Positions 1-6,378 of a stretch of 35,421 nucleotides of DNA are shown piece after piece (the stretch's first letter is position 1; every line of letters begins with the position of its first letter). Position numbers and translations under genes: made by a program. The stretch is from the NCBI GenBank assembly GCA_021735645.1, contig JAIPGP010000033.1, positions 1-35,421 of the forward strand. Direction: 5' to 3'. Source of the DNA: Candidatus Cloacimonadota bacterium. Lineage in GTDB: Bacteria; Cloacimonadota; Cloacimonadia; Cloacimonadales; TCS61. The notes under the pieces are model-generated. The model was not told where the DNA came from, made no database searches, and saw only the letters and a list, made by a program, of their open reading frames with translations.

Positions 1-51
1 CTCCTCTATAAGGAGCAATGCATCGAGGATAACATTCTTTTTCTTTTCCAT
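1..51 (-). CDS. 5' end of a minus-strand gene, product unknown (runs off the left edge)
   Basis: An ATG at 51-49 opens a frame that stays open to the window edge for 17 codons and reads MEKKKNVILDALLLIEE. A GGAGG ribosome-binding site (complement of 58-62) sits seven bases upstream, and a near-consensus promoter lies just beyond it at 76-104, so the start is well supported although only the N-terminus is visible. No signal peptide is seen and the fragment is too short to name a family. It is transcribed away from the large secreted-protein gene that begins at 529. Confidence 0.6.
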   Translation of the reverse strand, partial: MEKKKNVILDALLLIEE

Positions 52-75
52 AATAACCTCCATAATATTGGAGAC

Positions 76-104
76 AAAATAATTTAAGCCAGTATGTATG
101 TCAA
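76..104 (-). promoter_or_regulatory. sigma-70-type promoter of the left-edge minus-strand gene
   Basis: Read on the minus strand, a perfect TTGACA (104-99) is followed by a 17-base spacer and TATTTT (81-76). It lies 25 bases upstream of the ATG at 51, which leaves a short leader carrying GGAGG. The same architecture is seen upstream of other genes in the window. Confidence 0.6.
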
Positions 105-165
105 CTAAATTATTAATTTTATTTTTATAACCTACTTATATGGATGCTAAAATGTCCAAACTCCA

Positions 166-430
166 GGCTTAATCCTACCGGATTAAGCTCTTTTTAATGT
201 CAATCCAGGAGGATTGACCTACATTAAGACCACATACCAACCAGCTCTGGGATGAGTGGTATTTTCAGGTAGCTTAATCCTCCCGGATTAAGCTCTTTTT
301 AATGTCAATCCAGGAGGATTGACCTACATTAAGACCAGACCGCCTGGTTCTGTAATGGTTGGCATTTGTAGCTTAATCTTTCTAGATTAAGATTTCTTTA
401 ATATCACATCAGAAAGGAATTAAGAATCAG
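166..430. repeat. left hairpin-repeat array: two full ~105-bp units plus a decayed third
   Basis: Each unit starts with a palindrome AGCTTAATCC-TCCC-GGATTAAGCT followed by C and a T5-6 run. A second hairpin follows, GTCAATCC-AGGA-GGATTGAC, nested in AATGT...ACATT. Last comes a variable segment able to pair ATACCA with TGGTAT. First hairpins lie at 167-188, 271-294 and 372-391; second hairpins at 199-218 and 304-323. The third unit decays after its first hairpin, which has changed to CTTAATCT/AGATTAAG and still pairs. The same family reappears downstream of the large gene. The first hairpin plus T run resembles an intrinsic terminator on the plus strand. Function is unknown. Confidence 0.85.
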
Positions 431-528
431 AATTATAACTCTGAGACAGCATTTTATTATTTGTTGACATTTTCTTGACGCAAATTATCTTATATAATAT
501 GATTTAAGTTAATCGGAGGGTTATACTT
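431..528 (+). promoter_or_regulatory. leader and probable promoter region of the GLUG/PKD gene
   Basis: This AT-rich stretch holds TTGACA (464-469), TTGACG (475-480) and TATAAT (493-498). No pair has the usual 16-18-base spacing, so the exact promoter cannot be fixed. GGAGGG at 515-520 is the ribosome-binding site for the ATG at 529. Confidence 0.35.
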
Positions 529-3500
529 ATGAAAAAATTATTAATAATAATATTTTTGATTATATTTAATTGGCTTATTGCAGATGGCACCCCGCCGGAA
601 GGTTCTGGCACTGAAATAGACCCCTATCAAATGATGTCTTTAGATAACCTGCTCTGGTTGAGCACTACCCAAACCGCCTGGGTAAGCTCATCCTACTTTA
701 TACAAATACAGGACATTGATGCAACTGACACGCAAAACTGGAATGATGGGGCAGGATTCAGCCCGATCGGATTAGATATTAATAATCCCTTTTCCGGAAA
801 TTACAGCGGAAACAATCACATTATTGACGGACTCTATATCAATAGATCAGGCATTGATAATCTGGGACTGTTTGGATATACCACCGAAGCATTCATAGAA
901 GCTACCGGCGTAACCAATGTAGTATTTAGTGGAGGAGCAGGAGTGGGTGGACTGGTGGGATGGAATAACACTTCTGTGATCAGCAGGTGTTTTACCAGCG
1001 GAAATGTGAATGGGACATCTTTTAATATCGGAGGTCTGGTGGGAAAAAATGTTGCTTCGATGATCAGCGCCAGCTATTCAACTTGTAACGTGAGTGGCAA
1101 TGATTCCGTAGGTTGCCTGGTGGGAGTGAATCAAAGTTCCACGATCAGTGACTGTTTTGCCAGCGGAGATGTAATGGGAGTTTCGGACGGTGGTGGATTA
1201 GTGGGATTGAATTTTTTTTCCGGCACGATCAGCGATTGTTATGCCATTGGCAGTGTGAGTGCAGAAACTAATGCGGGTGGTTTGGTGGGCTGGAATTATT
1301 CAGGTTCGATCTTTAGCAGTATCTGGAACATAGAAACCTTCCCGCAAAATGAGGGAGTGGGAGCTAATTATAATGGTGAGATATCTGATTTACTGGGTGC
1401 AACTACGGCAGAAATGCAAATAAATACCACATATACGGCTATCGGATGGGATTTCGCAGGAGAAATTGTAAATGGAACACAGGATATCTGGAATATTTAT
1501 AGTATTGTGAATGATGAATATCCTTATATTTCTGATCTGAAATGGTCATTAAATGAGTTACTGGCAAACTTTTCTGCAGTTCCGGTTTATGGCGATATTC
1601 CAATGACAGTAAATTTCACGGATGAATCGATTTCAGAAAATATTATTATAACCTGGGAATGGGATTTTGAGAATGATGGAGTGATTGATAGTTATGAGCA
1701 GAATCCATCCTTTGTCTATAACGCGGCTGGTATTTATTCTGTTACTCTAACGGTAACTGATAATAATAATTCCACTAATACAATGATAAAAGAGGATTAT
1801 ATCACAGTAATTAACGGAGGTGTCCATCCTGATGGGAGCGGAACCGAAGCTGAACCATATCTGGTGTCTGCGCTGGATAATTTATTATGGATCAGCACAC
1901 ATGAAAGCAGCTGGAGTAGTTATTTTGTGCAAACAGAAAATATAGATGCCTCAGACACGCAAAACTGGAATGAAGGTGCCGGATTCAGTCCGATAGGAAC
2001 GGTAAACTTTCCTTTTTCAGGATATTATAATGGCGGTAATCACAATATTGCAGGTCTCTATATTTATAGACCTGCCACTGACAATGTGGGATTTTTTGGA
2101 TATAATAATGGATCTAACATACAAGGATTGGGGATAATCAATGCCAATATAACCGGTCTTGATTTTGCTGGTAGTCTGGCTGGATATAATGAAAATTCCA
2201 CAATCAGTGAATGCTATACAACCGGTAGTTTGAGTGGAAATAGTGAACTGGGTGGTTTAGCGGGATATAATTATGGTTCCACGATCAGCGAATGCTTTGC
2301 AGCAGTAAGCGTAACTGGAGATACGAATGTTGGCGGGTTGGCGGGACAAAATGCAGTATCATCTATAATATGTGACAGCTATGCAGCCGGCAATGTGATT
2401 GGAGGTGAATTTGTAGGAGGTTTGACTGGAACTAATTTTAATGATTCCACAATTAACAATTGTAATGCAACCGGTAGTGTTCAAGGTACAGGCTGGCGTA
2501 TCGGCAGCCTGGTAGGAACTAATGTTAACTGGTCAACCGTGAGTAATTGTATCTGGAATTTAGAGACATCTGGTCAGGCAAGTGCAGTGGGATATAATAA
2601 TGTTAATGGGATTATCTCTGATGTAATTACTGCCACGACAGCAGAAATGCAGATAATGAGCACCTATACGGCAATCGGGTGGGATTTTTCCGGGGAAACT
2701 GCCAACGGTACTGAAGATATCTGGGAAATTAACAGCGAGTTAAATAATAGTTATCCTTTTATTTCAGACTTGAATTGGTCACTGGGTGAATTTCTGGCTA
2801 ACTTTTCTGGAGTTCCAACTTCTGGCTATACTCCATTAACCGTAAATTTTATGGATGAATCTGTACCAGAGGACAGTATAATCGCCTGGCAATGGGATTT
2901 TGATAGTGACGGTATGGACGACTCTGAAGAACAGAACCCATCCTTTGTCTATAGTGAAGCAGGTATTTATTCTGTTACTTTAACGGTAACCGATAATAAT
3001 AATTCAACTAATACAATGATAAAAGAGGATTATATCACAGTAATTTACGGAGGTGTCCAGCCGGATGGGAGCGGAACTGAAGCTGAACCATATCTGGTAG
3101 CTACACTGGATAACTTGTTATGGCTAAGTGCACATGAAAGTTACTGGAGTGAATATTTTGTGCAAACAGCCGATATAGATGCCACTGCTACTCAAAACTG
3201 GAATGATGGGGCTGGGTTCATTCTGATCGGGAGGATCAACTATCCATTTTCAGGAAATTATCACGGAAGCAGCCATATTATTGATGGGCTTTATATAAAC
3301 AGACCTGCTACAACCAATATTGGACTATTTGGATATTCAAGTGGAGCAATCATTGAAGGTTTAGGAATAACAAATGCCAATATAACTGGCCTTGACCATG
3401 TTGGCGGTTTGGCGGGGTATAGTGATAATTCCACAATCAGCGAATGTTATGCAACCGGCAGTGTGAGTGGTCAATCTTATATTGGTGGTCTAGTGGGAGT

Positions 3501-5817
3501 TAATTATAATAATTCCACGATCAGTGAAAACTATGCCACTTGTGCTGTGAATGGAGTTGAATATATTGGCGGATTAGTGGGATTTAATAATAATAATTCC
3601 GCGGTTAGCAACAACTATGCAACAGGTAATGTGAGCGGAAATGAAAGCGTCGGTGGTCTGGCGGGATACAATAGTAATTTTTCCTCGATAAGCAAATGCT
3701 ATGCCATAGGAAGTGTAAGTGGTAATATAGAAGTTGGAGGTCTGGCAGGTCGGAATTTTAATTCATCTGTTATCAGCAGATGTGTCTGGAATACAGAAAC
3801 CTCCGGGCAATCCACCGGAATAGGAAATAATAGCAGTAATATATATAGTTTACTGGGCAGAACCACGGCAGAAATGCAGATGATGAGCACCTATACGAAT
3901 ATTAACTGGGATTTTAGGGAAGAAACAAATAATGGAGTTGATGATTTCTGGGATATTTATTCTAATTTTAATAATGGCTATCCCTATATTTCAGATTTGT
4001 TAGGGTCACTGTATAATGGAGAATTACTGGTTACCTTCTCTGCATCAACAACTTATGGCAGCAGTCCATTAGCAGTAGCTTTCCTGGATGGCTCGGTATC
4101 GGAAAATACAATTGAACTCTGGCAGTGGGATTTTGACAATGATGGTGTGATAGATAGTAATGAACAAAACCCAGTCTGGATATATAATGAACCAGGAGTT
4201 TACACTGTGCGTTTAACTGCAGCAAATTCCACCGGGCGGGAAACATCCACCAGAATAAAAGAAGATTATATAACAGTGACACCAGACTGGCAGGTGAACC
4301 CGGAGGATTTTTCTTATTGTGGCAGTATCTGGGGTGCCGTATATCTGGATTATGATCTGGTGGATCATACTGAAGGTATGCTGGGCTGTTTTGTGGGAGA
4401 TGAATGCCGGGGAGTAGGCAGTCTGGAAATGGGGACTATCATTGACTATACTTCAGAATATGGCTATATAGCTTTTTTACCGGTAGTTTACAGCAATGTG
4501 GATGAGGGTGAGATACTGAGATTTAAATACTGGGACTCTTACGAAAATAACGGTGAAATCATGAATGTCTGGGGAAGTATGGAATTTATTGCCAATATGG
4601 TGATAGGTAATGCAATTGAGCCTTATGAATTTCTGGCAAATCCTGATATAGCAATAGAACAATCCTTAGCAGAGGGATGGAACTGGTTTTCGGTCAATAT
4701 TGATAATGAAGATATGGGGATAGACAATGTACTTGGTTCGATAGGAGATAATGGAGAAAATATCAAGAACCAGACTCAGAGTGCTTTCTACTATGCAGAA
4801 ATCGGCTGGTTAGGCTCATTGAATGATTTTAATGCTAAAACAATGTATATGATCAAACTTTCAGAAGCAGACACACTGGAATTCTCGGGCATCCCGGCAA
4901 ATATCTGGCAGGTGGAATATAACGTGTATCCCGGCTGGAACTGGATATCATATTCACCTCAGGAGACGGAAAATATTAATTATGCTTTAAGCGGTCTGGG
5001 AGAATATGCAACCGTTATCAAGGGCCAGGCAAATTTTTCTTACTATTATGAAGATGCCGGCTGGCTGGGCAGTCTGGAAGAATTAACACCATTGAGTGGT
5101 TATAAGCTGAATGCCAATACAGAATGCAGCTTTACTTATCCGCTCCCTGAAAATTACTCCCGGGAAAGTAATGAGACAACTCAAGAGACATTTGCAGAAA
5201 TTGAACATCGAGAATTTGATTATAATGCTTATGAATTTAATGGGACTTTAGTATTCAGCTGTATAGATGAAATACCGGAGGAGTCGATTATCACTGCTTT
5301 TTGTGAGGATGAAGTTAGAGGAATCAGCGAACTGCTGGATTACAGAAAGCAGTTGGATAGAAAGTATTTTGCCCTGATGGTTTATAGTGATGAACCTTTT
5401 GAAGACGGTTTCCGGCTTTATTATCAGGAAAATGAAGATGCTGAGTTGGTTGAACTGGATTATGGTTTTACATTTGAATCCGATATGATACTGGGTGATT
5501 TCATAAATCCCGAAATGCTCATATTACCACAGAGTGATAATGATGACATCATTGAGTATATTGATAAACTGAGCATATATCCCAATCCTTTCAATCCGGT
5601 GGCAAATATTCAATATGAACTGGCTGAAAGTGGAAATGTATCGCTGAAAATCTATAATCTGAAAGGGCAGAAAGTAGTAACACTGGTTAATGGTTATTTT
5701 GAAGCAGGGAAACATTCCATTAGCTGGGATGCAGAAAACCAAAGCAGCGGGATTTATTTTATACATTATGAAAATAGCTCCATAAACCAGGTGAAGAAGA
5801 TAGCTCTTTTGAAATAA
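529..5817 (+). CDS. giant secreted GLUG-motif/PKD-domain protein with T9SS-type C-terminal sorting domain
   Basis: This 1762-residue protein starts with a signal peptide (MKKLLIIIFLIIFNWLIADG). Three tandem modules of about 410 residues begin near residues 20, 430 and 841. Each opens with PDGSGTE(A/I)xPY, continues through GLUG repeats of the type VGGLVGxN...ISxCYATGSVSG, and ends in a PKD domain with WxWDFDxDGxxDSxEQNP. Residues about 1254-1670 hold four unnamed repeats in the order A-B-B-A: A copies share Cx(D/E)DExRG, and B copies share GWNWxS and GWLGSL. Residues 1683-1762 are a sorting domain with YPNPFNP and YNLKGQKVV. The expected role is a surface-attached adhesin or polysaccharide-interacting protein. 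It stands alone between two repeat arrays. Confidence 0.85.
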   Translation: MKKLLIIIFLIIFNWLIADGTPPEGSGTEIDPYQMMSLDNLLWLSTTQTAWVSSSYFIQIQDIDATDTQNWNDGAGFSPIGLDINNPFSGNYSGNNHIIDGLYINRSGIDNLGLFGYTTEAFIEATGVTNVVFSGGAGVGGLVGWNNTSVISRCFTSGNVNGTSFNIGGLVGKNVASMISASYSTCNVSGNDSVGCLVGVNQSSTISDCFASGDVMGVSDGGGLVGLNFFSGTISDCYAIGSVSAETNAGGLVGWNYSGSIFSSIWNIETFPQNEGVGANYNGEISDLLGATTAEMQINTTYTAIGWDFAGEIVNGTQDIWNIYSIVNDEYPYISDLKWSLNELLANFSAVPVYGDIPMTVNFTDESISENIIITWEWDFENDGVIDSYEQNPSFVYNAAGIYSVTLTVTDNNNSTNTMIKEDYITVINGGVHPDGSGTEAEPYLVSALDNLLWISTHESSWSSYFVQTENIDASDTQNWNEGAGFSPIGTVNFPFSGYYNGGNHNIAGLYIYRPATDNVGFFGYNNGSNIQGLGIINANITGLDFAGSLAGYNENSTISECYTTGSLSGNSELGGLAGYNYGSTISECFAAVSVTGDTNVGGLAGQNAVSSIICDSYAAGNVIGGEFVGGLTGTNFNDSTINNCNATGSVQGTGWRIGSLVGTNVNWSTVSNCIWNLETSGQASAVGYNNVNGIISDVITATTAEMQIMSTYTAIGWDFSGETANGTEDIWEINSELNNSYPFISDLNWSLGEFLANFSGVPTSGYTPLTVNFMDESVPEDSIIAWQWDFDSDGMDDSEEQNPSFVYSEAGIYSVTLTVTDNNNSTNTMIKEDYITVIYGGVQPDGSGTEAEPYLVATLDNLLWLSAHESYWSEYFVQTADIDATATQNWNDGAGFILIGRINYPFSGNYHGSSHIIDGLYINRPATTNIGLFGYSSGAIIEGLGITNANITGLDHVGGLAGYSDNSTISECYATGSVSGQSYIGGLVGVNYNNSTISENYATCAVNGVEYIGGLVGFNNNNSAVSNNYATGNVSGNESVGGLAGYNSNFSSISKCYAIGSVSGNIEVGGLAGRNFNSSVISRCVWNTETSGQSTGIGNNSSNIYSLLGRTTAEMQMMSTYTNINWDFREETNNGVDDFWDIYSNFNNGYPYISDLLGSLYNGELLVTFSASTTYGSSPLAVAFLDGSVSENTIELWQWDFDNDGVIDSNEQNPVWIYNEPGVYTVRLTAANSTGRETSTRIKEDYITVTPDWQVNPEDFSYCGSIWGAVYLDYDLVDHTEGMLGCFVGDECRGVGSLEMGTIIDYTSEYGYIAFLPVVYSNVDEGEILRFKYWDSYENNGEIMNVWGSMEFIANMVIGNAIEPYEFLANPDIAIEQSLAEGWNWFSVNIDNEDMGIDNVLGSIGDNGENIKNQTQSAFYYAEIGWLGSLNDFNAKTMYMIKLSEADTLEFSGIPANIWQVEYNVYPGWNWISYSPQETENINYALSGLGEYATVIKGQANFSYYYEDAGWLGSLEELTPLSGYKLNANTECSFTYPLPENYSRESNETTQETFAEIEHREFDYNAYEFNGTLVFSCIDEIPEESIITAFCEDEVRGISELLDYRKQLDRKYFALMVYSDEPFEDGFRLYYQENEDAELVELDYGFTFESDMILGDFINPEMLILPQSDNDDIIEYIDKLSIYPNPFNPVANIQYELAESGNVSLKIYNLKGQKVVTLVNGYFEAGKHSISWDAENQSSGIYFIHYENSSINQVKKIALLK

Positions 5818-5851
5818 AACCTCACATTGCCCTGAATGCTTCTCTCAGTTT

Positions 5852-6204
5852 AAGACGCGCAACCAGACCACCCAACTCTGGAATGGTTGACTTTTTGTAG
5901 CTTAATCCTCCCGGATTAAGCTCTTTTTTAATGTCAATCTGGGAAGATTGACCTACATTAAGACCACATACCAACCAGCTCTGGAATGAGTGGTATTTTC
6001 AGGTAGCTTAATCCTCCCGGATTAAGCTCTTTTTAATGTCAATCCAGGAGGATTGACCTACATTAAGACCACATACCACCCAGCTCTGGAATGAGTGGTA
6101 TTTTCATGTAGCTTAATCCCGGATTAAGCTCTTTTTTAATGTCAATCTGGGAAGATTGACCTACATTAAGACCAAACCATCCGGACCCGGATGATAAGCA
6201 TTTT
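5852..6204. repeat. right hairpin-repeat array: one partial and three full units
   Basis: This is the same family as the array at 166-430. A partial unit (5852-5898) holds only the last segment. Three full units follow, with first hairpins at 5899-5922, 6005-6028 and 6110-6130 and second hairpins at 5933-5952, 6038-6057 and 6141-6160. Two second hairpins read CAATCT-GGGA-AGATTG instead of CAATCC-AGGA-GGATTG, so both arms changed together. The last first-hairpin has lost three loop bases. The palindrome plus T6 run that begins 80 bases after the large gene may also serve as its terminator. Confidence 0.85.
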
Positions 6205-6232
6205 TACGGTAGCATTGCTGTTTATGTCTTTC

Positions 6233-6378
6233 ACTCTTTCATATTTTCTCTCAGTCCCATCCTCTCACCTTCTCATCTTCTCATTTTCTCACCTTCTCAT
6301 TTTCTCATTTTCTCACCTTCTCACCTTCTCACCTTCTCACCTTCTCACCTTCACCCCTTCGCCTCTTCACCTCTTCGC
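6233..6378. repeat. polypyrimidine low-complexity tract built on CTCACCTT / CTCATTTT units
   Basis: About 145 bases are almost pure C and T on the plus strand, made of imperfect 8-10-base units such as TTCTCACC and TTTTCTCA, with CTTCACCTCTTCGC at the end. A 64-codon frame runs through it but encodes only a Ser/His/Leu/Phe repeat with no ribosome-binding site, so it is not called a gene. Confidence 0.8.

Follow-up and report, generated by a model that had tools for sequence, protein, structure and literature searches.

The repeat units that flank a giant surface protein gene in the genome of this Candidatus Cloacimonadota bacterium are, very probably, tandem dimers of GTAG-tagged REP sequences that most likely were spread by a RAYT transposase and then amplified locally into arrays. 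The basis for this is read from the sequence: the anatomy of the REPs, the geometry of the dimers, their genome-wide dispersal, covariation in their stems, a RAYT gene flanked by the same dimers and a linker shared by the two arrays. The window, that is the whole stretch of DNA analysed, is 35,421 nt long.

Two arrays of REP dimers in the window

The gene at 529-5817 (+ strand) encodes a 1762 aa surface protein with GLUG motifs, PKD domains and a Por secretion tail, as identified with Pfam. Proteins with a Por secretion tail form a very large set in the genome of the window (G000, 3.77 Mb), with about 100 further places besides this gene, and many of them exceed 1000 aa.

A preliminary description had reported a repeat of about 105 bp on both sides of this gene, in one orientation and nowhere else in the window. 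This holds. Positions 191-337 and 5925-6071 share 97% identity across 147 nt, the period of the arrays is 103-106 bp, and all units of the left and right arrays lie in the same orientation. The strict REP pattern, GTAGNTYAATCNNNNNNGATTRA, matches at the two array sites and nowhere else in the 35-kb window. With up to two mismatches to GTAGNTYAATCNNNNNNGATTRA allowed there were 13 matches in the window against 0.24 expected, every one within the two arrays, and none of the shuffles reached 13.

Judged by its letters, each unit consists of two GTAG-tagged REPs set head to head (a REPIN or BIME) and followed by a linker. REP 1, on the plus strand, consists of the GTAG foot, the stem CTTAATCC, the loop TCCC and the stem GGATTAAG. 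REP 2, on the minus strand, consists of the GTAG foot, the stem GTCAATCC, the loop TCCT and the stem GGATTGAC. The two are separated in the window units by a T-rich spacer of 13-14 nt (GCTCTTTTTAATG), and the linker that follows the pair is specific to the locus.

Three parts had been described for the unit, namely a terminator-like palindrome with a T run, a second hairpin and a variable third segment. Hairpin 1 with its T run indeed scores terminator-like at positions 166, 271, 5899, 6005 and 6110. The second hairpin exists and folds with the first far beyond shuffled sequences (z = -9.1), but its anatomy had to be corrected: it is itself a REP, lies on the opposite strand and has a GTAG foot of its own, and the unit is thus a symmetric head-to-head dimer. 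The third segment folds no better than chance (z = -1.4 against shuffles); we rejected a third conserved hairpin and describe the segment as the linker.

The left array (167-430) holds two full units, 167-268 and 269-367, and a decayed third. In the first, REP 1 (167-188, +, identified from its sequence) lacks its GTAG foot at the junction with an insertion sequence (IS), and is followed by REP 2 (200-222, -, GTAGGTCAATCCTCCTGGATTGA) and a linker of type A (228-268, +). The second unit is made up of REP 1 (269-292, +, GTAGCTTAATCCTCCCGGATTAAG), REP 2 (304-327, -) and a linker of type B (331-367, +). The third (368-430, +) retains a variant of REP 1, GTAGCTTAATCTTTCTAGATTAAG, and a degenerate partner. 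The gap between the left array and the gene contains two promoter-like sites (464-503, +), each a 10/12 match to the consensus, a resemblance in sequence that does not imply function.

The right array (5858-6210) begins with a linker remnant at about 5858-5896 (+), of B-like type, and continues with the units 5897-6002, 6003-6107 and 6108-6210. The first comprises REP 1 (5897-5920, +), REP 2 (5933-5956, -, GTAGGTCAATCTTCCCAGATTGAC), in which the loop-closing pair is T-A and not C-G, and linker A (5962-6002, +), 97.6% identical to 228-268. REP 1 (6003-6026, +), REP 2 (6038-6061, -) and linker A (6067-6106, +; 95% identity to 228-267) form the second. In the third, REP 1 (6108-6129, +, GTAGCTTAATCCCGGATTAAGC) is 3 bases shorter; it is followed by REP 2 (6142-6164, -) and a diverged, B-like array end (6165-6213, +) that terminates at CGGTAGC.

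A search of the window for tRNAs, as possible integration sites, found none. Just 3' of the right array, at 6221-6372, lie tandem octamers (TTCTCACC-like), and similar short-period stretches occur in other sampled parts of the genome.

Dispersal of the REPs and a RAYT transposase

The strict REP pattern gave 136 matches in G000, and 50 and 11 in two genomes of the same genus (G001 and G002, respectively). There were further 49 matches in G015, from another genus of the same family, 4 in G029 and 3 in G036; the pattern is absent from 53 of the 59 genomes searched. The reversed pattern, used as a control, had no match in any genome.

Clusters and neighbouring genes were analysed in about 0.5 Mb of G000 stretches around REP matches. 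With the foot left loose as GNNG, these sampled stretches yielded 141 copies in at least 55 clusters, including the nine window REPs that have both a pattern match and a GTAG foot. Although the foot was left loose, 135 of the 141 carry exactly GTAG. All but three copies (138/141) lie outside ORFs of at least 150 aa, even though such ORFs make up 78% of the sequence. By crude gene calls the clusters face 57 5' ends and 40 3' ends of genes. Crude ORF calls place them in 25 tandem, 13 divergent and 4 convergent gaps, the divergent gaps being long here.

Two stem positions vary in step. The loop-closing pair is G-C in 54 of the 141 copies, C-G in 35, A-T in 29, T-A in 18 and unpaired in 5, and the third stem pair is T-A in 98 and C-G in 42, with one mismatch. 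Among the 34 distinct REP sequences these positions are paired in 29 and 33, where shuffles averaged 8.6 and 18.8; none of 2000 shuffles attained the observed pairing, indicating that the REP stem is kept as a stem while its letters vary.

Close head-to-head pairs with GTAG on the outside number 25, one of which is an artefact of the loose pattern, and nearly all of their spacers are 12-18 nt long. The dimers occur singly or in tandem arrays that include flanking sequence. Array periods are 103 bp on contigs C13 and C16, 97-99 bp on C64 and C73, 159 bp on C124 and about 120 bp on C85. Arrays of REPs only, with a period of 33-37 nt, are found on C14 and C124. At C73:12103-12832 two REP arrays, both of 98-bp period, lie about 730 bp apart with no ORF of at least 80 aa between them, a second example of a REP array split by an insert.

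The suggestion that the unit is a non-autonomous mobile element is supported by the position of its dimers next to RAYT genes. In G001 a RAYT gene of 218 aa (contig C93; L228, 1420-2076, minus strand) is flanked by REP dimers of this family, two per side (about 1180-1240, 1389-1452, 2122-2187 and 2248-2313 of L228), the arrangement termed a REPtron. Its product scores 81.7 bits against the NCBIfam model REP_Tyr_transpos and passes the cut-off of 80. The sole relative in the PDB is 4er8, TnpArep of E. coli. In TnpAREP of E. coli, W94, Q95, E100, H101 and R104 take part in GTAG recognition and N119 is essential (PMC6006769). The alignment of the G001 protein to 4er8 shows conserved residues opposite W94, Q95, H101, R104, Y115 and N119, and E100 is replaced by D.

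The orthologue in G000 is seen as two pieces. Contig C14 starts with the part encoding residues 125-217 (76% identity) and contig C66 with that encoding residues 3-26 (92% identity), both beside REPs, so that dimers adjoin both broken ends. We take the pieces as one RAYT gene broken by assembly, and we infer an intact gene in G000, since it is seen there as two contig-end fragments with the middle missing.

Contigs C14 and C66 align colinearly with G001:C93 on either side of the RAYT, and the order of the genes between differs. The order is flank, RAYT, AraC-type gene and surface gene in G000, and flank, AraC-type gene, RAYT and surface gene in G001. The label AraC-type comes from reading the protein sequence, not from a family search. 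The RAYT position of either genome is taken up by a REP dimer in the other, and the breakpoints of the swap fall at REPs (G000 C14:1-2528 and C66:1-5056 against G001 C93:1-10028; L154, L148 and L270). The relocation may have occurred by transposition or by REP-to-REP recombination. The two congeners form a natural pair, with the RAYT module at different places of one locus.

Other candidates in G000 were rejected as the cognate transposase. The RAYT-like genes on C103, C52 and C42 have unrelated repeats in their flanks and no REP of this family, and an IS200-type gene on C120 has no GTAG REP of the family nearby. The gene on C103 (1-1400, L144) lies within a tandem array of its own repeats of about 88 bp, and that on C52 (L145) within tandem arrays of its own 149- and 198-bp repeats; both sets are unrelated in sequence to the window REP family. 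The fragment at C42:2-523 (L146) has a 33-bp hairpin repeat (RRGRRSSQGNL) about five times in frame, resembling the insertions of REPs described in RAYT subclass 2.4 (PMC6006769).

We suggest that the RAYT of G000 and its relatives, a HUH tyrosine transposase of the TnpAREP type, most likely recognises the GTAG foot and the hairpin on single-stranded DNA and would thereby spread REP dimers into intergenic gaps. Recombination or replication slippage could then multiply an inserted dimer with its local flank into a tandem array, and such amplification would give arrays of differing period. We infer RAYT-driven mobilisation, array growth and a possible influence on transcription.

With its T run, hairpin 1 may plausibly terminate or insulate transcription as a side effect. 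In passing, the right array could serve the surface gene as a 3' hairpin or terminator, and the left array could shield it from upstream transcription. That the arrays are in the first place intrinsic terminators or insulators, under selection for transcription control, we consider unlikely. Such a role would fit the terminator-like character of hairpin 1 at five window positions and the predicted promoter-like sites that separate the left array from the gene. However, it leaves unexplained the GTAG foot and the inverted second REP, as well as the genus-restricted burst of copies and a transposase flanked by the same units, and many copies lie in divergent gaps, where a terminator is unnecessary. 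Termination is a possible side effect and not the origin.

The two covarying stem positions and the strong predicted folding could also point to transcription of the arrays into a structured non-coding RNA. We regard this as very unlikely, because a Rfam search gave no family match and recognition of the REP on single-stranded DNA accounts for the covarying stem. In addition, the linker in the window is locus-specific, which means that no common transcript is conserved.

The surface gene between the arrays

Linker A was found at 228, 5962 and 6067 alone among the stretches examined, and a whole-genome search with window positions 100-530 gave no other place covering linker A among the matches listed. 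Being unique to the two window arrays, it indicates that both descend from one local array, and REPIN transposition alone is insufficient to explain the sharing. We propose that RAYT-spread dimers formed a single array here that was divided by the gene, which came to lie inside it, or that was copied across the gene. The right array starts partway through a linker, and the last dimer of the left array is decayed, as would fit the interruption of one array. An empty site, with the array and without the gene, was not found. The flanking of the gene on both sides looks like local history.

The RAYT locus offers a related possibility. REP arrays might let gene modules move, as in the order swap of the RAYT and the AraC-type gene at REPs, and the surface gene might have been placed in the window array likewise. 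We think this quite unlikely.

The preliminary description had taken the bracketing of one gene as suggesting a cassette. The common local origin of the arrays, indicated by linker A, agrees with part of that reading; the remainder was not borne out. What that description had itself named as refuting it is what we find: the units are scattered over ordinary intergenic gaps (at least 55 clusters), with no link to surface genes. A Por secretion tail is encoded by 17 of the 93 neighbours of REP clusters and by 23 of 213 other genes in the same stretches (p = 0.10), and among genes of at least 400 aa by 15 of 51 neighbours and 20 of 75 others (p = 0.84). As the units sit in ordinary gaps and are not enriched at surface genes, the exchange of surface proteins by cassette fails as an explanation.

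It is accordingly very unlikely that the arrays are recombination arms flanking a swappable surface gene. The restriction of linker A to the two window arrays would suit such arms, and so would the genes beside murI: G001 and G015 share the murI-pyrG pair that lies 3' of the window gene, but each has a different gene next to murI. Against this, the murI intergenic region of G001 has no REP, related surface genes in G000 (on C36 and at C111:20094-23207) had no nearby REP in the searches made, and the AraC-type gene at the RAYT locus is also bracketed by REPs.

An adjacent insertion sequence and related systems

Window positions 1-166 (minus strand), at the left edge, are the terminal part of an IS. 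The terminal repeat, AATGTCCAAACTCCAG, occupies 151-166 directly next to the first REP, and a minus-strand ORF starts at 51-1 (MEKKKNVILDALLLIEE). Window positions 29-165 match the start of contig C97 at 99% identity, and the IS end is 85.6% identical to one in G002 (L281), where the next ORF encodes a protein matching DDE_5. The terminal 16-mer AATGTCCAAACTCCAG abuts a REP on C22, C97 and C107 and another hairpin on C105. A hairpin with a stem score of at least 7 opens 19 of 29 flanks of the IS terminal sequence in four genomes, compared with 1.3% of random places; for some elements both ends are counted among the 29, and not all flanks are independent.

The IS and short elements with AATGTCCAAACTCCAG sit directly beside REPs, terminator-like stems and other palindromes (window 1-166; G000 C97:1-138, C107:1-138 and C105:1-138; L279-L302). 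Two short elements in G015, L298 and L302, are each bordered on either side by the same palindrome, as would be seen if the target duplication comprised the entire hairpin.

It is extremely unlikely that the units themselves are a DNA-transposon MITE with terminal inverted repeats, moved by a DDE transposase: the dimer does have the form of a miniature element with inverted repeats, and the same genomes hold an IS with short-element relatives, but the REP pair has a GTAG foot and flanks a RAYT rather than a DDE transposase, and the DDE-type IS, which inserts at REPs, ends in another terminal repeat, AATGTCCAAACTCCAG.

Insertion at REPs is known from ISPpu9 and ISPsy8 (PMC1525189). Here, at three places in G000, the IS end adjoins the REP hairpin at one and the same position; unlike those elements, this IS matches DDE_5, and its relatives also lie beside other hairpins, including terminator-like ones.

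The type of system described here is already known, and our sequence comparison places a GTAG-REP/REPIN family with a cognate RAYT in Cloacimonadota. The GTAG REP superfamily (Di Nocera et al. 2013, PMC3733652) shares with our family GTAG at the foot of a short hairpin, an 8-bp stem, a 4-nt loop, stem subfamilies with compensatory changes, head-to-head dimers, tandem clusters and an intergenic position. The stem and loop of our family read YAATCN-TCCC-NGATTR, and the likeness is one of architecture. REPs elsewhere are biased towards 3' ends and convergent gaps, whereas the 5' ends are the more numerous here, as counted with crude gene calls.

In Pseudomonas fluorescens SBW25 (Bertels and Rainey 2011, PMC3116915) the unit is likewise an inverted REP doublet, clusters repeat the REPIN and its flanking sequence in order, and one cluster adjoins a RAYT. 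Our system differs in phylum, in a spacer of about 13-16 nt and in also having REP-only arrays (33-37 nt).

TnpAREP/RAYT subclass 2.4 (PMC6006769), present in Bacteroidetes and various phyla, shares the HUH motif as NHxH, WQ and YIxNNP with our RAYT. The HUH motif is NHLH here and not NH[IFV]H, and D stands in place of E100; membership in subclass 2.4 is suggested by motif match only. The RAYT on G015 C147 (L226, 992-2336) is 41% identical to that of G001 and is flanked by a different GTAG REP, GTAG-CACAGACG-TCCC-CGTCTGTG, with the TCCC loop common to both families.

The GTAG lineages of PMC3733652 are Proteobacteria, Cyanobacteria, Chloroflexi and the PVC group. Cloacimonadota, mostly uncultured, are unnamed there and in the REP surveys PMC6006769 and PMC12306157, and GTAG REPs with a cognate RAYT are hereby extended to them. 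No earlier report of such REPs from Cloacimonadota was found in the literature searched, most subscription journals being outside it. REP clusters and the IS that inserts next to them lie near many contig ends, which suggests why assemblies break there.
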